From Flavobacteriales bacterium 33_180_T64 (GTDB lineage Bacteria; Bacteroidota; Bacteroidia; Flavobacteriales; Flavobacteriaceae), in NCBI GenBank assembly GCA_002162685.1, contig MAAQ01000016.1, positions 62,001 through 126,000 of the forward strand: a stretch of 64,000 nt of DNA. Direction: 5' to 3'. The notes beneath the pieces are model-generated. The model worked only from the letters and a program-made list of their open reading frames with translations. It searched no databases and had not been told where the DNA came from. A program made the translations under genes and the position numbers. The stretch's first letter is position 1. Every line of letters begins with the position of its first letter. Shown here piece by piece: positions 16,871 to 27,977 of the stretch.

Positions 16871-19159
16871 ATGGAAGAACTAATGATTTACATGCCAATA
16901 GCTTTGGCGATTTTAGGGTTAATTTACATGCTTGTAAAGAAATCTTGGGTTATGAAACAAGACGCTGGAGACGGTAAAATGAAAGAAATTTCAGATCACA
17001 TCTACGAAGGGGCATTAGCATTTTTAAATGCTGAGTATCGGTTACTTGCCATTTTTGTAGTTATTGTAGCAGCTTTGTTAACTGTCGTGTCTTTTGTAGT
17101 GCCAACAACTCACTGGTTAATTGTAATCGCTTTTGTTTTTGGAGCTGTGTTTTCTGCTTTCGCTGGTAACATCGGAATGAAAATAGCAACTAAAACAAAC
17201 GTTAGAACAACTCAAGCAGCTCGTACAAGTTTACCAAACGCACTTAAAATTTCTTTTGGAGGTGGAACTGTAATGGGACTTGGTGTAGCTGGTTTGGCTG
17301 TACTAGGCTTAACAGCATTCTTTATATTCTTCTTTTGGTTCTTTATGGGAAGCGAATGGACAACTACAATGGATATGACTATTGTATTAGAAACATTGGC
17401 TGGTTTTTCTTTAGGTGCTGAATCTATTGCTCTTTTTGCAAGAGTAGGTGGTGGAATTTATACCAAAGCTGCCGATGTAGGCGCTGATTTAGTAGGAAAA
17501 GTTGAGGCAGGTATTCCTGAAGATGATCCTCGTAATCCTGCTACAATTGCAGATAATGTTGGTGATAATGTTGGTGATGTTGCTGGTATGGGAGCCGATT
17601 TATTTGGGTCTTATGTTGCAACAGTATTAGCAGCAATGGTTTTAGGTAATTATATTATTAAAGATATGGGAGGTTCTATCTCTGACGCATTTGGAGGTAT
17701 TGGTCCAATTTTATTACCAATGGCAATTGCAGGTGTAGGAATTATTATTTCTGTCATCGGTACAATGTTGGTGAAAATAAAAAGTAATGATGCTAAAGAA
17801 TCTCAAGTCATGGGTGCTTTAAATATAGGAAACTGGACATCTATTGTTTTAGTCGCAGTGGCATGCTTCGGATTAGTAACTTGGATGTTACCAGAAACAA
17901 TGCAAATGTCATTTTTTGGTGAAGCTGAAGATGGTGGGAATTTAATGAAGAGCATTAGCTCGATGCGTGTTTTTTATGCAACTTTAGTTGGATTATTTGT
18001 TGGAGCAGTGATTTCTTCTGTAACTGAATATTATACTGGATTAGGAAAAAGCCCAATCTTAAAAATAGTACAGCAATCTTCTACTGGAGCAGGAACAAAT
18101 ATTATAGCAGGTCTAGCAACAGGAATGATATCTACATTTCCTTCAGTATTATTATTTGCTGGAGCAATTTGGGCATCGTATGCATTTGCTGGATTTTACG
18201 GTGTTGCTTTAGCAGCCTCTGCAATGATGGCAACTACAGCAATGCAGTTAGCAATTGATGCATTTGGACCAATATCTGATAATGCAGGTGGTATTGCTGA
18301 AATGAGTGAGCAAGAACCAATCGTTAGAGAGCGTACAGATATTTTAGATTCTGTTGGTAATACAACAGCAGCAACAGGGAAAGGATTTGCTATCGCTTCT
18401 GCTGCATTAACGTCTTTAGCATTGTTTGCAGCTTATGTAACATTTACTGGAATTGATGGGATTAATATCTTTAAAGCACCAGTACTAGCTATGTTATTTG
18501 TTGGTGGTATGGTGCCTGTAGTGTTTTCTGCTTTAGCAATGAATGCTGTGGGAAAAGCAGCTATGGAAATGGTTGAGGAAGTAAGACGTCAGTTTAGAGA
18601 TATTCCTGGGATTATGGAAGGTAAAGGGAAACCAGAATACGATAAATGTGTCGCAATTTCTACAAAAGCGTCTTTAAAAGAAATGATGTTGCCTGGTCTA
18701 TTAACAATAGGATTTCCATTAGTAATTGCTTTTGTCCCAATGTTATTTGGTATGGATAAGATGATGATTGCTGAAATGCTTGGTGGTTATATGGCTGGTG
18801 TTACAGTTTCAGGTGTATTATGGGCTATCTTTCAAAATAATGCTGGTGGAGCTTGGGATAATGCTAAAAAATCTTTTGAGGCTGGTGTAGAGATTAACGG
18901 AGAGATGACATACAAAGGTTCTGAAGCTCATAAAGCTGCTGTAACTGGAGATACTGTTGGTGATCCATTTAAAGACACATCAGGACCTTCAATGAATATA
19001 TTAATTAAATTAACATGTCTTATCGGTTTAGTTATTGCACCAATTTTAGGAGGGCATTCTTCGGAAGAAGGATTAGCGATTGATGAGGTTAAAGTTGAAA
19101 TGACAATAGATACTAAAGATTTAGCTGATGCTAAAGAAGTGAGTGTTATTAAAGAATAA
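16871..19159 (+). CDS. hppA: Membrane-bound ion-pumping pyrophosphatase, probably K+-dependent and H+-pumping
   Basis: The 762-residue integral membrane enzyme couples PPi hydrolysis to cation export. It has the PPi-binding block [26 protein letters not shown] (218-243) and [18 protein letters not shown]. At GNTTAATGK (496-504) the Ala at 500 is the residue linked to K+-dependence. The carboxylate normally in ADLFESYV is replaced here by Gly (G246). A Glu instead sits in the previous helix ([13 protein letters not shown]184), where most homologues have Ser. I recall this relocation from Flavobacterium johnsoniae-type H+-pumping enzymes, so H+ export is my preferred call, with Na+ less likely. 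It lies 118 bases behind ppa. Confidence 0.93.
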
Positions 19160-19180
19160 TATTCTAATTGTATATAGATC

Positions 19181-19209
19181 AAAAAAACCACGTTTATCGT
19201 GGTTTTTTT
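19181..19209 (+). terminator. Rho-independent terminator after hppA
   Basis: AAAAAAACCACG (19181-19192), five bases, CGTGGTTTTTTT (19198-19209). A strong GC core with A/T flanks, 21 bases past the stop; the flanking A-run makes it possibly active in both directions. Confidence 0.85.
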
Positions 19210-19274
19210 ATTTAATAAACAGGTGTTTTTACTCGTTTTTAAGTGCTTTAATTGATGTATTTTTATTTAAATTA

Positions 19275-19796
19275 ATGCAAAAGTCAAATACCATACCACA
19301 GCTATTAAAAACAATTGAAGACTTTCAAATTGTGAAATGTAATATGTACCACGAAAGTGTAGTAATTGATTCTAATAGAAAGCCTGTTTATAAACGAATT
19401 GATGATGCTATTGTGTTTGATCGTGTAAGCCTTTGTGATGCAAATCATAGAAAAGTGCGTTTAGGATGCGCACACTCAATAGTGAATAGTAACTTTTCGA
19501 AAATTTTAGAGAATGCGCAATTATTAATTCCTAAACAATCCAATGAGATTTTAATTTTTAAAAATAAATTTGAAGCTGTAATTGCAAAAATTTATGTTTT
19601 AGATCATAAAAAAGGACAAATGGAACATGAGTTGGCCATTTTTGAAATGACATCAAATGGTAAATCAAATGCACAACTTGATTTATCAATGAATGTATTA
19701 AAAGCTGAACACAATATATTAATGGATAATATTATTTCTATTAAGTCTGATATTGAGTCATTTATAAGTAAAGTGATTAATAACAGTAATTTATAA
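19275..19796 (+). CDS. Hypothetical protein upstream of the App1-type gene
   Basis: I start at the ATG at 19275 (MQKSNTIPQLLKTIEDF). The open frame extends further upstream but overlaps the hppA terminator and has no protein-like sequence. The 173-residue product has an alpha/beta N-terminal half and ends in a long helix (NAQLDLSMNVLKAEHNILMDNIISIKSDIESFI) that could form a coiled coil. Cysteines are at about residues 22, 55 and 67. I recognise no family. It is 52 bases before the App1-like gene, so shared transcription is possible. Confidence 0.6.
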   Translation: MQKSNTIPQLLKTIEDFQIVKCNMYHESVVIDSNRKPVYKRIDDAIVFDRVSLCDANHRKVRLGCAHSIVNSNFSKILENAQLLIPKQSNEILIFKNKFEAVIAKIYVLDHKKGQMEHELAIFEMTSNGKSNAQLDLSMNVLKAEHNILMDNIISIKSDIESFISKVINNSNL

Positions 19797-20862: not shown

Positions 20863-22812
20863 TTAAATCAAGTTAACGTCAGCTATTATTTCTAAAACTC
20901 CAGCTTTAGGTTGCAGATACAATTCTCGCATGGCACCTTCAAGTTCTTCTTGTTTTTCAACACGTTTACCCCAAGCTCCACAAGATTGTGCAAATTCAGA
21001 AAAATTAGGGTTAGATAACGATGTTTTCCATACATCAAATTCGCCAGCACGTTGTTCTTTAGATATTTTTCCAAGCTCGTGATTATTAATGATAATCAAT
21101 TTAACAGGCATATTATATTTAACTAACGTTGTGATTTCAGCTAAATATTGACAAACGCCTCCATCTCCAGCAATAGCAATTACAGGTCTTGTTGTTCCAA
21201 CTGCTGCCCAAGCACCAATGGCTGCAGGTAATGCAAACCCTATTGAGCCTAAATATCCAGACATTAAAAAATCTTGATTTGTAGGCTCGAAATAGCGACC
21301 AAAAGAATAAGCATTATTTCCCACATCAACACACATTACTGCGTTTTCTGGTGTAAGTTTATTCATGGTTTCAAAAATAGCAATAGAGCTAATGCCATGA
21401 TCTGAAGTTTCTAATAAACGTTTTTGCTTTTCAGCTTTCCAAATGCTCCAGCGCTCGGCTATTTCATTACGTTGATCATCAGTATTAATTTGTTTCTTTA
21501 ATTCTGATTTGAAGATGTCTAAGGTTCTTGATATTTCTCCCCAAACGGCAACTTCAACTTGATGAAATTTACTTAAAGCTAGTGGGTCAAAATCTACTTG
21601 GATAATAGGTTTTTTTGGTGTAATTCCTGTATGATTAGAGAATGATGCACCAAAAACAATTAATAAATCAGCTTCATTCATAAACCATGACGCTATTGGT
21701 GTGCCACTTCGCCCTAAAACGCCTCCGCCAAGAGGATGATTGTCTGCAATTAATCCTTTTCCTTTAAAAGTTGTTACCACAGCAGCGTTTAAACTTTCAG
21801 CAAATTGAACAACCGCTTTTTTGTGTTCGCGAGCACCATGTCCCATAACAATTACTGGTCGTTTCGCTTTCTTTATTAAATTTATTGCTTCTGTAACAGC
21901 TTCTTTTGGTGGCGCTATTTCTAAAGAGGTTATTCTATTTTTTGGTCCTTTTGCTTTAGTATGAGGGTTTACTTTCTTCTCTTGTACTTCGTCAGGGAAT
22001 GTTAAATGAGAGACATCGCGTTTTAAAATAGCGTGCTTTATGGCTAGCGACATAAGTTCGGCATGACGACTATCACTCTGCACACGTTGGTTAAATTCGG
22101 CAACGGTATTAAACCCTTGAACTAAATCGACTTCTTGAAAGTTTCCTGTACCTACAACTTGCGTTTTTACTTGACCTGTTAAAGCTAAAATTGGAGCGCG
22201 ATCTACTTTAGCATCCCAAAGGCCAGTATACATATTGGTTGCTCCTGGGCCGGCAATAGAAAAACATGCGGCAGGTTTACCTGTGAGTTTTCCATATGCC
22301 GAAGCAGCAAAAGCGGCTGCACCTTCATGGCGAATACCATAAAAATTAAGAGCTCCTTTTTCTTCTTGACGTCTCATGGCATCAGCAAAACCAAGATTAG
22401 AATGACCTACCATACCAAAAACTTTATTCACGCCCCAATTTACCATGGTTTCTACCATAATATCAGACACTGTAGTTTCATGAGGTGCTTCTTCTTTTAC
22501 GCCAACATAAATAGCATTGTTTTCTTCTTTTATTGGAAATGTATCAATACCATCATCAAAGCCACCTGGTGGCTTTCCAGAACATGGGTCAAAATCCCAG
22601 CCATGCCATGGACAACGTAACAGCCCATTTTCTATCGAACCTTCTCCTAAGGGACCTCCTTGGTGTGGGCAGCGATTATCAAGAGCTGAAAATTTCCCTT
22701 TGTAATGTGTTAAACAAATGCTTTTATGATTTGCAGTAACTGTTTTTACACGTCCTTCTGGAAGGTCTTTTTTGTTACTTAAAACTTTATGCCAAACTAC
22801 TTTTTTTTCCAT
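20863..22812 (-). CDS. Rieske [2Fe-2S] domain fused to a thiamine-diphosphate enzyme
   Basis: The 649-residue protein fuses two modules. Residues about 5-105 are a Rieske ferredoxin domain with C48-P-H50 and C67-P-W-H70. From about 115 to the end is a TPP enzyme of the acetolactate synthase / pyruvate oxidase superfamily: RHEGAAAFAASAYGKLTG with the catalytic Glu at 163, SIAGPGATNMYTGLWDAKVDR, then FEPTNQDFLMSGYLGSIGFALPAAIG. The GDGG...NN cofactor motif is near residue 550. Pyruvate or another 2-oxo acid is a plausible substrate; no quinone-binding tail is evident. It overlaps the antiporter gene by 1 base in a four-gene operon with a second Rieske fusion. Confidence 0.9.
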   Translation of the reverse strand: MEKKVVWHKVLSNKKDLPEGRVKTVTANHKSICLTHYKGKFSALDNRCPHQGGPLGEGSIENGLLRCPWHGWDFDPCSGKPPGGFDDGIDTFPIKEENNAIYVGVKEEAPHETTVSDIMVETMVNWGVNKVFGMVGHSNLGFADAMRRQEEKGALNFYGIRHEGAAAFAASAYGKLTGKPAACFSIAGPGATNMYTGLWDAKVDRAPILALTGQVKTQVVGTGNFQEVDLVQGFNTVAEFNQRVQSDSRHAELMSLAIKHAILKRDVSHLTFPDEVQEKKVNPHTKAKGPKNRITSLEIAPPKEAVTEAINLIKKAKRPVIVMGHGAREHKKAVVQFAESLNAAVVTTFKGKGLIADNHPLGGGVLGRSGTPIASWFMNEADLLIVFGASFSNHTGITPKKPIIQVDFDPLALSKFHQVEVAVWGEISRTLDIFKSELKKQINTDDQRNEIAERWSIWKAEKQKRLLETSDHGISSIAIFETMNKLTPENAVMCVDVGNNAYSFGRYFEPTNQDFLMSGYLGSIGFALPAAIGAWAAVGTTRPVIAIAGDGGVCQYLAEITTLVKYNMPVKLIIINNHELGKISKEQRAGEFDVWKTSLSNPNFSEFAQSCGAWGKRVEKQEELEGAMRELYLQPKAGVLEIIADVNLI

Positions 22813-24050
22813 CAGTTACGTTTTAATAATTTAGAAACTACTTTTTCTATGGTTAAACCTTGTGCAATAATTGAGAAGACCACTACTACGTATGTTGCAT
22901 ATAAAATAATATCTTTTACATCTCCTTCTGGAAGTGATAGTGCTAGTGCAATTGAAATTCCTCCTCGCAGCCCAGCCCAGGTTAATATTATGGTTTCATT
23001 TTTATTTGCTCGATGTGATTTTTTTAATAGGAAATTTGATAATATGATTGTGATGTATCTTGATAGAAGAACTAATATAATAGAAATAATACCCAGTAAT
23101 AAATGATAAGCATTAAAATCTAATGTAATTGTTACAATACCCATAAGAACAAATAGAACTGCATTAAAAATTTCGTCTAAGACCTTCCAAAAGATATTCA
23201 TATGATTTTTTAAATCTTTAGAAATAACTTTTGCATGCAAACTCTGTCCAATTATAAGTCCAGCAACAACCATAGCAATAGCTCCTGATATATGAAGTAT
23301 ATTGGATAATATATAACCGCCCATTACAATTGCTAAAGAAATATGTACAGCTATGACTGCTTCTTTGTTTACACTTTTAATGCATTTTTTTCCTAAATGT
23401 CCCAAGAGGAACCCCATTAAGAATCCACCTCCTGCTTCTTTGCCAAATTCAGAAGTGATATGCGAAAAATCGAATTCGTGCATCATTGTAGCCAATGAAA
23501 GTACAGATAAAAAAACAACGATACCTACACCATCATTGAACAAAGATTCGCCAACAATTTTGATTTCCATATGTTTAGGAACTCCAGCTTTTTTTAATAA
23601 CGCTAATACAGCTACTGGATCTGTAGGTGAAATTAGTGCGCCAAAAACTAAACTATATAAATAACTAATATTTAATCCTATAAGTGAAGCTACATAATAA
23701 AAGGTTGTAGCAATAATAAAGGTTGATATCAAAACACCAAATGTTGCATAAATAAAAACGATGATTTTCTCTTTTAATAACCCTTTTAAATTAACATTAA
23801 TAGCTCCTGAAAAGAGTAAAATACCTAAAAGAAAATCGAATAAAATGGTTTTAAAATCTATGCTTTTTGCAAAATCTGTAACCTGATGAAAATAAGTTTG
23901 ATCAATAAAGTAACTAGCTGCAAACAAAAGCGATACTGCAATAGAAAGAATCATTACACCTATAGTGTTAGGCAGTTTTAAAAACTTCGCGTTTAAATAG
24001 CTTAAAAATGCAGCTAAGGCAATAATACCTACAAATAGTTCAAGCATCAT
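22812..24050 (-). CDS. Na+/H+ antiporter of the CPA1 family
   Basis: The 412-residue protein has about 12 membrane helices. It has CPA1 signatures: FGALISPTDPVAVLALLKKAG with the paired Asp/Pro of helix 3-4, and VGESLFNDGVGIVVFL with the essential Asp of helix 5. WAGLRGGISIALALSLP follows near the C-terminus, typical of NhaP/NhaK-like proteins. Start M1 (GTG-free MMLELF) lies 11 bases inside the end of the unknown gene. Ion specificity is not readable from sequence, but Na+/H+ exchange is usual. Membership of the operon with two Rieske enzymes is unusual. Confidence 0.9.
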   Translation of the reverse strand: MMLELFVGIIALAAFLSYLNAKFLKLPNTIGVMILSIAVSLLFAASYFIDQTYFHQVTDFAKSIDFKTILFDFLLGILLFSGAINVNLKGLLKEKIIVFIYATFGVLISTFIIATTFYYVASLIGLNISYLYSLVFGALISPTDPVAVLALLKKAGVPKHMEIKIVGESLFNDGVGIVVFLSVLSLATMMHEFDFSHITSEFGKEAGGGFLMGFLLGHLGKKCIKSVNKEAVIAVHISLAIVMGGYILSNILHISGAIAMVVAGLIIGQSLHAKVISKDLKNHMNIFWKVLDEIFNAVLFVLMGIVTITLDFNAYHLLLGIISIILVLLSRYITIILSNFLLKKSHRANKNETIILTWAGLRGGISIALALSLPEGDVKDIILYATYVVVVFSIIAQGLTIEKVVSKLLKRN

Positions 24051-24792
24051 TTATCGAGTTTAAATATAGATTAATAGCCACTTGACAAAAATCAATTATA
24101 GAATCTTCATCAGACTCACTTATAGGTATTGCAAAACCTTGCCAACCATTAGTATAGTATGTTTCTTTGTTAATATTTTTTGGTAATTCTAGGTTTATAG
24201 GCTTATGATTATTATAGCCACTTATATAAAAATAAAAGTCATCAATTAATGAATCTGGAATAGCCATACCGATGCCAATGGAAAGCTTTTTATTAATGTT
24301 GACAAATGCTCCAGTATCAAAATGGTGAGGCCAAATTCGAATGGGCGATATATAGTTGTTGGACGTTAATACCTTTGAAATTACATGTTGTGCTAGGTCT
24401 CTTTTTTTTATTAACTGATTTAGATCGTTTTGACTTGTTAATTTGAAACGAAATGTATCAGAGATTTTTTTATACGGAAGGTCATAATGCATGAGGTATG
24501 AATATACCTTTTCAATATGATTATCTATACTCATAAGTGCGATCCAATCAATAACTTCTTTATGCGTTACATTATTCAGAAACAAATGTTCTTTGTTGCC
24601 ATCACTATGTATCCATTCTAAAGAAAAATGTTCATAATTTAAACCTAGTTTGTCTCCATTAATAAAAGGATGAGTTTCTAATGTACGATTAATCCATCCT
24701 AAATTAGTGTGACTATCATCATCTTCTTTAGTAATAAAGCTAATTGCTGAAGTGGCTAAATACTGTGCCGCTATGTGCATGGTTTCTTCCAT
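24040..24792 (-). CDS. Unknown protein of the Rieske-enzyme operon
   Basis: The 250-residue soluble protein has no signal peptide or membrane helix. It has an N-terminal helical part (AAQYLATSAISFITKEDDDSHTNLGW), then EWIHSDGNKEHLFLNNVTHKEVIDWI. A compact motif RIWPHHFDTGAFVNINKKL follows, with GIGMAIPDSLIDDFYFYISGYNNHKPI near the end. The WPHHFD block resembles small cytosolic families such as DUF5996-like proteins, but I cannot assign it. Its last 11 bases overlap the antiporter start, and it begins 3 bases after the upstream Rieske-GltS gene, so translation is likely coupled. Confidence 0.75.
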   Translation of the reverse strand: MEETMHIAAQYLATSAISFITKEDDDSHTNLGWINRTLETHPFINGDKLGLNYEHFSLEWIHSDGNKEHLFLNNVTHKEVIDWIALMSIDNHIEKVYSYLMHYDLPYKKISDTFRFKLTSQNDLNQLIKKRDLAQHVISKVLTSNNYISPIRIWPHHFDTGAFVNINKKLSIGIGMAIPDSLIDDFYFYISGYNNHKPINLELPKNINKETYYTNGWQGFAIPISESDEDSIIDFCQVAINLYLNSINDA

Positions 24793-24795
24793 AAT

Positions 24796-26421
24796 TTAGT
24801 GTATAACTCCCGCGTAATTAATTCCTGTTAGTTTGTGCATATCGATATCAAATGTTGATAAGTCATTAGGATTAAATTTTGTAATATTATCATAACCACA
24901 AGCTCGAGCAACAACCTTAATAAGGCTGTTAGTAGCATCAAAATAGTTGTGTAATTGTTTTGCTGAAGATTGAATTATAAGTCGACTTCTAAGCGATTCT
25001 TTTTGGGTTGCTATACCTACAGGGCAATTATTGGTTCCACATGCTCGCATGCCTAAACAGCCAATGGCTTGTAATGCAGAATTAGAAACGGCAATGGCAT
25101 CTGCACCAAGCATTAGTGCCTTTGCGAAATCTTCAGCAACGCGTAAACCTCCAGTAATAACTAATGTGATATTTGTAGCTCCAACCTTGTCCAAATATTT
25201 TCTGGCTCTTGCTAAAGCAGGAATTGTTGGGACATTAATATGGTCTCTTAAAATAGTAGGTGCAGAACCAGTTCCGCCGCCACGACCATCAAGTATAATG
25301 TAATCTACTCCTGCATCTAATGCAAATTGTATGTCTTTTTCTATATGACTGGCTGCAATTTTAAAACCAATAGGAATACCTCCTGTAAGTTCTCTTACTT
25401 TATTACCAAAATTTTTGAAGTCTTGAACAGTATGAAAATTTGGATTTGCAGCTGGAGAAATTGCAGTTTCCCCTTCTTTTAGTGCTCTTACTTTAGCGAT
25501 TTCTTTACTTACTTTGTTTCCGGGTAAATGACCACCAGTTCCAGTTTTTGCTCCTTGACCTCCTTTAAAGTGAAAGGCTTGTACGTTATTTAACTTATCC
25601 CAAGAGAATCCGAATTGAGCTGATGCTAATTCATAAAAGTATTTAGAATTACTTTGTTGCTCTTCTGGTAACATACCACCTTCTCCAGAACAAATTCCAG
25701 TTCCAGCCATTTCGGCTCCTTTGGCCAATGCAATCTTTGCTTCTCGAGACAATGCGCCAAAACTCATATCGCTAACAAAAAGCGGCATGTCTAATATTAA
25801 AGGTTTTTTAGCATTTGGACCAATACAAACTTTAGTAGTAACGTCTTCATGATCTAATAATGGCCGTGTTGCTAATTGAGCTGGTAGAAATTGAATGTCA
25901 TTCCATTTAGGTAATGTATTTCGGTCAACTCCCATTGAGGCAGAAAACCCATGATGACCAATGTTTTTAAGCCCGTTTTTCGCTAATTCTTTTATATAGC
26001 CAGTATAAGGTTCGGTGTCTTCAGGATGTGTATCTGCATAAGTACCTAAATAGTCCTCACGATTAAATGGTTGTGGGTGATCTATTTCAAATGCAATAAT
26101 TTCATTTTCATCTACTAAAAGGGAATCTCCTTCAGTGTATTCCTGAAATTTATGGAGTACTTCTTTGTTATTATATTCAGAAACTCCAGTATCTATTCTA
26201 TAATCCCAACCATGAACACCACAAATAAGATTATGCCCATCAATATAACCATCAGACATTAACGCTCCTCTATGAAGGCATCTTCCGTAAAGTACAGAAA
26301 TCCCTGTTTGATGTTTTATGATTACTAAATCTGTGTTTTTAACTAACGCATATGTAGGTTGCTTATCTTGAAGTTGGGAAATTTTAGCGATTTCAATTTT
26401 GTTTTTTGTCATGTGGTTCAT
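24796..26421 (-). CDS. Rieske [2Fe-2S] domain fused to a glutamate-synthase-like (FMN) domain
   Basis: The 541-residue protein has a Rieske domain at about residues 8-110 (C48-L-H50 and C67-G-V-H70). An FMN-binding glutamate synthase barrel follows: MPLFVSDMSFGALSREAKIALAKGAE, GEGGM, KGGQGAKTGTGGHLPG, PNFHTVQDF and the phosphate loop GRGGGTGSAPTILRD. A [3Fe-4S] cysteine trio, C455, C461 and C466, lies in CLGMRACGTNNCPVG. The glutaminase domain and the GltD-type FAD subunit are both absent, so it is not a normal GOGAT. Electron entry probably uses the Rieske centre, but the partner is unknown. It is the first gene of a four-gene overlapping operon. Start M1 or M4. Confidence 0.88.
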   Translation of the reverse strand: MNHMTKNKIEIAKISQLQDKQPTYALVKNTDLVIIKHQTGISVLYGRCLHRGALMSDGYIDGHNLICGVHGWDYRIDTGVSEYNNKEVLHKFQEYTEGDSLLVDENEIIAFEIDHPQPFNREDYLGTYADTHPEDTEPYTGYIKELAKNGLKNIGHHGFSASMGVDRNTLPKWNDIQFLPAQLATRPLLDHEDVTTKVCIGPNAKKPLILDMPLFVSDMSFGALSREAKIALAKGAEMAGTGICSGEGGMLPEEQQSNSKYFYELASAQFGFSWDKLNNVQAFHFKGGQGAKTGTGGHLPGNKVSKEIAKVRALKEGETAISPAANPNFHTVQDFKNFGNKVRELTGGIPIGFKIAASHIEKDIQFALDAGVDYIILDGRGGGTGSAPTILRDHINVPTIPALARARKYLDKVGATNITLVITGGLRVAEDFAKALMLGADAIAVSNSALQAIGCLGMRACGTNNCPVGIATQKESLRSRLIIQSSAKQLHNYFDATNSLIKVVARACGYDNITKFNPNDLSTFDIDMHKLTGINYAGVIH

Positions 26422-27194: not shown

Positions 27195-27977
27195 TTATTT
27201 GATTTTTAGTTGGTATTTATGAAGTTTTTCAAGATCGTAAATATACAAGGTTTCATTGGTTAGTAAAAACTGATTTATTAACAATTGAGGTGTTTTCAAT
27301 AAAAGAATTTTCTCGCTTTTTTTAGATTTATAAACCAAAAATGTTTTCGTTTTAAGAATAATATTTGAATGATGTATTGCAAGAGCCGTATAGCCTTTAT
27401 TTTCGATTTTTGAAATTAAACTCCCAAAGTACGTGTATTGGTATAAATATTTTTCAGTAAGCATCCAACAGTAATTATAGTCACTCTTTAAATCAATCAC
27501 ATGAGATTGGATCGGTACTGTAGTGGCTCTAATGGTATTGTTTTTATAGTCGTATAATTCTAATTGCTGAAGGTCTTGATTAAAAATCCAAAGCGTGTTA
27601 TCATAACCTGTAGAAATATGAGAGACATTTTTATAGGGTTGAATCGTATTGAAATCAATTTTAAAAATTTCAGCAAGGCGGTTGTCAAGGATGATAGCGG
27701 TATTAAAATTTTGATAAAAAAGATTGATTTTTAATGGGTTAAAGGCATTTGCAGTAGTAGGCTCTCCTAATTGCACATTACTGTAATTAACCGATGGCTT
27801 GTCTTTTGGTTTTTTATAAAGAATGGTGTTAATCGTGTAATAAATCGTTTCAAAGTTATCTATAGCAATAATTTGATCGGCTTTTAATGCTGTTGAATCT
27901 ATCGCAATTACATCAATTTGAGTTTGAGCAAATACAAAAGCTGTAAAGAATAGAAATAGATATCGAATAAAAGGCAT
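27195..27977 (-). CDS. Secreted protein of unknown function, possibly beta-propeller-like
   Basis: The 260-residue protein has a signal peptide (IRYLFLFFTAFVFAQ) and a run of short beta-rich repeats (HISTGYDNTLWIFNQDLQQLELYDYKN, SDYNYCWMLTEKYLYQYTYFG, NKGYTALAIHHSNIILKTKTFLVYKSK). These look like blades of a WD/YVTN-type propeller, with about five units. No catalytic motif is visible. It is translated 2 bases upstream of deoxynucleoside kinase and is conserved in layout with it in other Flavobacteria as far as I recall. Confidence 0.68.
   Translation of the reverse strand: MPFIRYLFLFFTAFVFAQTQIDVIAIDSTALKADQIIAIDNFETIYYTINTILYKKPKDKPSVNYSNVQLGEPTTANAFNPLKINLFYQNFNTAIILDNRLAEIFKIDFNTIQPYKNVSHISTGYDNTLWIFNQDLQQLELYDYKNNTIRATTVPIQSHVIDLKSDYNYCWMLTEKYLYQYTYFGSLISKIENKGYTALAIHHSNIILKTKTFLVYKSKKSEKILLLKTPQLLINQFLLTNETLYIYDLEKLHKYQLKIK

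Follow-up and report, generated by a model that had tools for sequence, protein, structure and literature searches.

What does it mean that two different enzymes, encoded in one operon, each carry a Rieske [2Fe-2S] domain at the N-terminus? The operon in question lies in a window of 64,000 nucleotides, the whole stretch analysed here, from Flavobacteriales bacterium 33_180_T64 (GCA_002162685.1, contig MAAQ01000016.1, positions 62,001 to 126,000); coordinates below are those of the window. Rieske domains are familiar chiefly as parts of quinol:cytochrome c complexes and of dioxygenase systems. Here one is fused to a thiamine pyrophosphate (TPP) enzyme (RTPP) and another to a flavoenzyme of the glutamate synthase (GltS) type (RGLT). 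The two enzymes turn up together in lineages ranging from Flavobacteria to haloarchaea, and an antiporter often lies with them. The association of RTPP with RGLT and with antiporters is not a product of chance, and the two enzymes probably form a genuine redox and ion stress system that has not been studied until now. Tentatively, and with a probability of roughly 0.37, we read the operon as a variant of an accessory redox/ion stress module that is widespread and built on two Rieske-wired enzymes.

The four genes are co-directional and lie head to tail on the minus strand, spanning 20863-26421:

24796..26421, minus strand: RGLT, a Rieske [2Fe-2S] domain at the N-terminus (residues ~1-107) and a GltS-type flavin mononucleotide (FMN) barrel with C455, C461 and C466, without a glutaminase domain.
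24040..24792, minus strand: UNK, a protein of 250 aa with conserved DDSHTN, H-Y-D and R-WPHHFDTG motifs and a distant tie to DUF5996 through relatives.
22812..24050, minus strand: NHE, a PF00999 (CPA1-like) cation/proton antiporter made up of the transmembrane domain alone, with an ESLFND motif.
20863..22812, minus strand: RTPP, a Rieske [2Fe-2S] domain at the N-terminus (residues ~1-105) and a PoxB-like three-domain TPP enzyme, without the C-terminal tail of PoxB.

A 3-base gap separates RGLT from UNK, UNK and NHE overlap by 11 bases, and NHE and RTPP overlap by one (TGATG), which confirms the nearly touching or overlapping same-strand genes described in a first-pass annotation of this DNA. 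The upstream gene lies 156 bases from the RGLT start; at the other end, 15 bases separate RTPP from the end of a convergent gene. Pfam assigned Rieske and TPP_enzyme_N/M/C to RTPP, Rieske and Glu_synthase/FMN-barrel families to RGLT, and no family to UNK. The predicted Rieske ligands C48, H50, C67 and H70, matched between the two enzymes in the first-pass annotation, are indeed intact at the same numbering in both. They are invariant in 51 RGLT and 7 RTPP sequences, and both domains score above the Pfam cut-off.

Co-occurrence was assessed in 296 Bacteroidota genomes searched for RTPP, RGLT and UNK. The RTPP fusion occurred in eight (E <1e-240, the next matches being unfused TPP enzymes at ~1e-73), UNK in 26, and full-length RGLT in 37, where full length denotes E<=2.5e-196 including the Rieske part (two of these have one internal stop) and 48 genomes match overall at E<=1e-60. 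Seven of the eight genomes with RTPP also had RGLT, as did 23 of the 26 with UNK; the Fisher p-values, which ignore relatedness, are 2e-6 and 1e-21, respectively. RGLT lay within ~3 kb of RTPP in three RTPP genomes (that of the window, G088 and G077) and on a separate contig in four; the remaining one, G128, gave no RGLT match.

The neighbourhood of RTPP was then read in 86 loci, comprising the best 80 of at least 568 RTPP relatives in species genomes and six further loci. This sample leans towards the window's kin, its two sources may overlap, and one genome contributes two loci (L048, L066). Within 5 kb of RTPP we counted RGLT in 51 loci, NHE in 37, UNK in 34, a membrane Rieske protein (MR) in 26, and its companions c6 and c7 in 25 and 21. 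Other neighbours were a DUF2721-like protein, c4 (24), a YHS protein (16), a large, weakly metallophosphatase-like protein (13), a Crp-type regulator (12), DUF427 (11), an ion channel (10) and an FMN_red flavoprotein, c17 (8). Orientation was close to uniform: RGLT shared the strand of RTPP in 50 of 51 cases, NHE in 37 of 37, UNK in 32 of 34 and MR in 26 of 26. Less than 5 kb of DNA was available on at least one side of RTPP in 31 loci; among the 55 with full flanks, RGLT was found in 38 and NHE in 31.

The antiporter follows RTPP rather than RGLT. Scored with a home-made antiporter profile over 8 kb, it accompanied 38 of 86 RTPP loci vs none of 20 RGLT loci without RTPP (Fisher 5e-5, or 4e-4 when four RGLT loci with RTPP elsewhere in the genome are dropped). 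These RTPP-less loci are ~10-15 kb each, and 19 of the 20 yielded an RGLT open frame. UNK followed RGLT or stood a few genes off in nine with strong matches and two with weak ones. From gene content, the window operon looks like two couples, RGLT-UNK and NHE-RTPP. This picture is blurred by UNK beside RTPP in 12 of 35 loci lacking RGLT, on which ground we rejected a clean split in which UNK is tied to RGLT alone. Strict co-transfer of all four genes was likewise rejected: no more than 14 of the 86 loci have RGLT, UNK and NHE all at 5 kb or less from RTPP.

Outside the Bacteroidota, 19 RTPP loci were read, four from Pseudomonadota, ten from Acidobacteriota (phylum labels that we partly assume, anchored on L073 and L071, respectively), four from haloarchaea and one from an actinobacterium. 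RGLT occurred within 5 kb of RTPP in ten, c6 in six, an antiporter in five and c17 in one; the antiporter profile included the five positives, and only its misses are independent. Among 200 Pseudomonadota genomes, four held RTPP, seven full-length RGLT and three both. All three shared loci have the order RGLT, MR, c6, RTPP with small genes interspersed (between RGLT and MR in L221 and L222, between c6 and RTPP in L222 and L223), and in two of them a PF00999 antiporter lies directly upstream of RGLT. The fourth RTPP, that of the gammaproteobacterium Shewanella hanedai (L073), is 68% identical to the window's, has no RGLT, MR, c6 or antiporter nearby, and was likely acquired by horizontal transfer.

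RTPP was present in 10 of 149 acidobacterial genomes, adjacent to RGLT in five (L071, L250-L253), with MR and c6 in L071, L251 and L252 and an antiporter in L071 alone. The other five (L254-L258) resemble each other in context and lack RGLT, MR, c6 and the antiporter; four of them have a 259-aa gene directly upstream of RTPP, and all five a second TPP-type enzyme (625-734 aa) some kb off. Four haloarchaeal plasmids encode RTPP at 55.6-56.7% identity, and three also carry RGLT (53.9-54.7% identity) at distances of 1.4, 4.0 and 16.7 kb. On the Halorarius plasmid the order is RTPP, sodium:proton antiporter, potassium channel, two small genes, RGLT. The actinobacterial locus, on a plasmid of Mycobacteroides abscessus, has RTPP at 51.8% identity, a flavodoxin-like protein 57% identical to c17, and a PF00999 antiporter.

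All of these antiporters belong to PF00999, in different subfamilies: the haloarchaeal one matches a profile built for the window's kind (3.9e-49), the two from Pseudomonadota share 43% and 45% identity with that of the Acidobacteriota, and the actinobacterial one is distant. Because other subfamilies recur near RTPP, if in a minority of loci elsewhere, the antiporter link suggests function rather than shared history alone. Of the single four-gene system proposed in the first-pass annotation, the enzyme pair, conserved beyond the Bacteroidota, and the recurring PF00999 link survive; the strict set of four does not.

The TPP half of RTPP resembles pyruvate oxidase, as first supposed. The top NCBIfam model was PRK08611, a pyruvate oxidase, whose cut-off of 742 bits was not reached (414 bits), and all 25 NCBIfam matches listed score under their curated cut-offs. 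The best PDB chains were those of E. coli PoxB (3ey9/3eya). A PDB profile search with an alignment of seven RTPP gave no match at E<=1e-100. We built a tree from 19 RTPP, 22 unfused Bacteroidota enzymes, E. coli PoxB, IlvI and Gcl (cut) and the window's own IlvB. All RTPP fall in a single clade (100/100), which a branch with 100/99 support puts on the side of PoxB; the tree is unrooted and has a long RTPP stem and flagged long branches. An assignment as acetolactate synthase was rejected, since the tree sets RTPP with PoxB and apart from IlvI and IlvB.

With PoxB, RTPP shares the TPP N/M/C domains and the RHE(G) and GDGG...NN motifs, the conserved glutamate of RHE having a catalytic role in PoxB-type enzymes. 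It differs in its added N-terminal Rieske domain, in LGK where PoxB has LGF, and in the C-terminal tail, which is not present on alignment to E. coli PoxB. In PoxB that tail binds the membrane and flavin adenine dinucleotide (FAD) passes electrons to quinone; in RTPP the Rieske cluster would be a new electron exit. The RTPP gene of G088, a close relative from the same family as the window's genome, has an in-frame TGA near the C-terminus (L004:1501-3444), from either a decaying gene or a sequence error.

RGLT bears out the earlier description of a GltS-type FMN/[3Fe-4S] barrel without glutaminase, on the combined evidence of Pfam, alignment and structure matching. Alignment to GltB gave 34% identity over 263 aa of the FMN/[3Fe-4S] region, and the first structure matches to the AlphaFold model (predicted local distance difference test score, pLDDT, 87.8; predicted template modelling score 0.78) were GltS entries (1ofe, 1ea0). 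C455, C461 and C466 match the [3Fe-4S] ligands of GltS (C-x5-C-x4-C), are invariant in 51 RGLT and presumably bind such a cluster. RGLT differs from glutamate synthase in lacking the glutaminase domain, in its N-terminal Rieske domain and in length (541 vs 1486 aa for GltB).

Relatives that lack the Rieske part suggest what it is for. Of the 200 Pseudomonadota genomes, 25 matched RGLT: seven at full length, one as a fragment with the Rieske part and 17 over the core only, the last starting at residue 111-136 with 56-64% identity to the window's RGLT. Eleven further Bacteroidota genomes matched the core, or part of it, alone. In all four core-only N-termini read (from L235-L239, L237 excepted) we found two CDGSH motifs, and Pfam confirmed CDGSH in two genomes with CDGSH-GltS proteins (L259, L260). 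Tandem CDGSH joined to the GltS FMN domain is the known type 5 CDGSH protein, as set out in the relevant passages of PMC3174974 (see also PMC5859297). It shares its core with RGLT but has CDGSH [2Fe-2S] domains where RGLT has the Rieske domain, and RGLT has no tandem CDGSH. Context is partly shared too. The CDGSH-GltS locus L259 and the Rieske-GltS locus L261 both have an OYE-type FMN oxidoreductase and GST-domain neighbours, with pirin and Fer4_19 by L259 (Pfam) and similar-looking genes, judged by eye, in L261; in L260 a PF00999 antiporter is one gene away. Because [2Fe-2S] modules of two folds occupy the same N-terminal position, its job would be electron transfer, and the N-terminal module of the RGLT family is probably an exchangeable electron-transfer part.

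A Rieske tree of the RGLT, RTPP and MR domains with 29 background Rieske domains (108 columns) sets RGLT in a separate clade (100/99) on a long stem and RTPP in a group supported at 88/93, while the MR group takes in one background row. With 108 columns the deeper relations, and with them the order of the three groups, are not settled. Recent copying of one Rieske domain into both genes is not supported, the RGLT, RTPP and MR domains lying in different groups. The placement of these appended domains in different groups, and the CDGSH domains of RGLT relatives, would also agree with a role as sensors of redox state or oxygen that turn the enzymes on or off, in place of one as electron wires. 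We consider this the least probable explanation, and very unlikely, as two unrelated [2Fe-2S] folds at one place fit electron transfer better and RTPP in addition lacks the tail of PoxB.

MR itself (L043:10550-11581 and 25 like loci) is a membrane protein with a Ferric_reduct domain and a C-terminal Rieske domain. It is accompanied by c6, with a conserved DpKCYFGvMKPG...HrSCA.lCIsGGiPP, and by c7; the c6 and c7 examples scanned had no Pfam match. In one locus (L104:5969-7840) a single 623-aa protein unites MR and c6, and this supports a joint function of the two; RGLT is split into two frames there. The trio of MR, c6 and c7 is an uncharacterised membrane redox module.

In eight RTPP loci (L041, L042, L047, L049, L052, L054, L055, L077) the FMN_red flavoprotein c17 (~252 aa) is present and RGLT is missing from the 5 kb on either side; none of the 86 loci holds both. 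We searched for RGLT in 29 genomes: the eight with c17, that of L071, whose locus includes RGLT, and 20 more in which the locus lacks it. At E<=1e-60 RGLT was absent from all eight c17 genomes, whose completeness is not given. Among the 20, eight have a Rieske-type RGLT elsewhere (G305, G306, G307, G309, G312, G316, G318, G322), one has RGLT in two pieces (G320), two have the core alone from residue 136 (G296, G315) and nine have none. The presence of c17 in RTPP loci without RGLT, including the actinobacterial plasmid, indicates that a flavoprotein can stand at RGLT's place. All eight c17 loci are, by a genus placement that we assume, from Flavobacteriales, and the swap may for that reason reflect few events.

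These observations bear on whether the operon serves pyruvate-driven glutamate synthesis for osmoadaptation, in which RTPP would feed electrons to RGLT, RGLT would form glutamate from 2-oxoglutarate and ammonia, and NHE would expel Na+. The conserved FMN/[3Fe-4S] motifs of RGLT suit such a scheme, as do the antiporter and ion-channel neighbours, the salt sources of the haloarchaeal records and the genus names among the Bacteroidota, which we take to be marine. Yet the flavodoxin-like c17, which can stand in for RGLT where a genome lacks it, speaks more for a redox role than for glutamate synthesis; the glutaminase domain is missing, and GGQLPG of E. coli GltB reads GGHLPG in RGLT. On balance we find this scheme quite unlikely.

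The antiporter invites a further comparison. NHE matches Na_H_Exchanger (PF00999) at E 2.6e-58 over residues 12-406 of 412, and carries the ESLFND motif, whose ND we take to mark CPA1; its TIGR00831 score is below the TIGR00831 cut-off. The CPA1 label given at first pass is in keeping with the domain and motif. Kef antiporters presumably belong with PF00999 as well. As described in the part of PMC10224563 that concerns it, KefF is a quinone reductase whose gene overlaps that of its antiporter, and in the window operon too an antiporter sits beside a redox enzyme with overlapping genes. The Kef system offers a precedent by analogy for pairing quinone reductase and antiporter, though Pfam found PF00999 alone in NHE and no KTN/RCK domain, and the redox enzymes here differ from KefF.

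On this model the redox enzymes would detect or clear electrophiles and control how active the neighbouring antiporter is, as the FMN enzyme KefF does for KefC. The company of c17 with RTPP, joined in some loci by an antiporter (L047, L049 and L054 in Bacteroidota, and the actinobacterial plasmid), and the OYE- and GST-like neighbours of RGLT kin agree with it. NHE ends after the membrane domain, without the Kef regulatory part, and c17 was not found in the window genome in a search that had no positive control. We rate Kef-like control as slightly less probable again than glutamate synthesis.

UNK is a conserved family, as judged from 47 members that share D25-D26-S-x-T-N, H102, P106, R131 and W154-P-H-H-F-D159, invariant or nearly so. 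Its predicted structure is confident (pLDDT 93.9), but Foldseek against the PDB returned nothing at E<=0.001 (best E 0.015, TM-score ~0.2), and with no structure match the fold suggests no function. The window's UNK does not match DUF5996. Eight of the 47 members do so weakly at E<=1 (best 3.6e-7), and two distant relatives near RGLT do so strongly (L149, 1.5e-26; L156, 9.9e-56); a full-text literature search found no paper using the term DUF5996. UNK as a part shared across phyla was not borne out in the 19 RTPP loci read outside the Bacteroidota.

Stress-type genes are recurrent in these neighbourhoods: relatives of RTPP or c17 have peroxiredoxin, thioredoxin, mercury-reductase-like and rhodanese genes beside them, and the kin of RGLT have pirin, GST-like and OYE-type genes. 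A PycTM (Pycsar effector transmembrane) gene follows the antiporter in L044, L047, L072, L089, L093 and L097 (for example L089:12272-12934), Pfam having been run on one such gene. Next to the operon in the window are two open reading frames, 19143-19796 and 27195-27977 (217 and 260 aa), with no Pfam match at E<=0.1. The enzyme pair has a patchy distribution, is in some cases carried by plasmids and lies near stress genes, and it is therefore best viewed as an accessory stress system.

Within that frame, the wiring we propose is drawn from the anatomy of the proteins and from known families. RTPP would oxidatively decarboxylate a 2-oxoacid, most likely pyruvate. Electrons would pass from FAD, the binding of which is assumed, to the Rieske cluster of the same enzyme and from there to an acceptor, either soluble or in the membrane; in many species this is probably the MR encoded nearby. 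In RGLT electrons would run from the Rieske cluster to [3Fe-4S] and FMN, reducing 2-iminoglutarate or a stress electrophile. The antiporter may correct cytosolic pH or cation balance under the same stress, and UNK may help RGLT in Bacteroidota. A more ambitious version, rather unlikely as a whole, is an undescribed cross-domain system with [2Fe-2S] domains as exchangeable plugs. In it a tailless PoxB-like oxidase and a GltS-like reductase would dock by their Rieske domains onto a common partner, in many species a Rieske/heme-b-like membrane protein. The oxidation of 2-oxoacids would in this way power reductive defence against stress, and an antiporter encoded with the enzymes would restore cytosolic pH and cations.

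Several observations weigh against a module of wired enzymes. Firstly, RGLT and RTPP are often apart, and stress neighbours are context, not function. Of the 37 Bacteroidota genomes with RGLT, 30 have no RTPP. Sixteen of the 86 loci, five of them with full flanks, lack RGLT, UNK, NHE and MR within 5 kb. Secondly, outside the Bacteroidota UNK is in none of the 19 loci and the antiporter in only five (haloarchaea 1/4, acidobacterial 1/10, pseudomonadal 2/4, actinobacterial 1/1). Thirdly, a Rieske family search of the window genome found only the RTPP and RGLT domains, and so no MR. Finally, the F in LGF-VAMEMKAG of PoxB is replaced by K582 in RTPP (LGKISKEQRAG), invariant in seven RTPP, and for this reason the substrate may differ from that of PoxB.

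The same counts favour the view that the genes are bystanders, sharing a stress island or regulon with no common electron path, each enzyme having a partner of its own. To them may be added the 9 of 19 loci outside the Bacteroidota without RGLT within 5 kb, the 14 of 19 without an antiporter, and the many unrelated genes among RTPP neighbours. The 19-locus count slightly weakens the accessory module and strengthens this view, the likeliest of the alternatives and still, in our estimate, somewhat unlikely. It sits poorly with the overlapping genes of the window, with an RGLT that is almost always on RTPP's strand, and with an enzyme pairing that is the same in several phyla and two domains, partly with different antiporter subfamilies.

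The first-pass annotation knew of no named system of this kind. Aimed full-text literature searches likewise turned up no paper describing this gene set, nor do the relevant passages of PMC9478572, PMC8097209, PMC3174974, PMC5859297 and PMC10224563. If the proposed wiring is true, RTPP would represent a new way of drawing electrons from 2-oxoacids, and the operon a new redox/ion stress system with a defined gene set and, in UNK, a new partner family.

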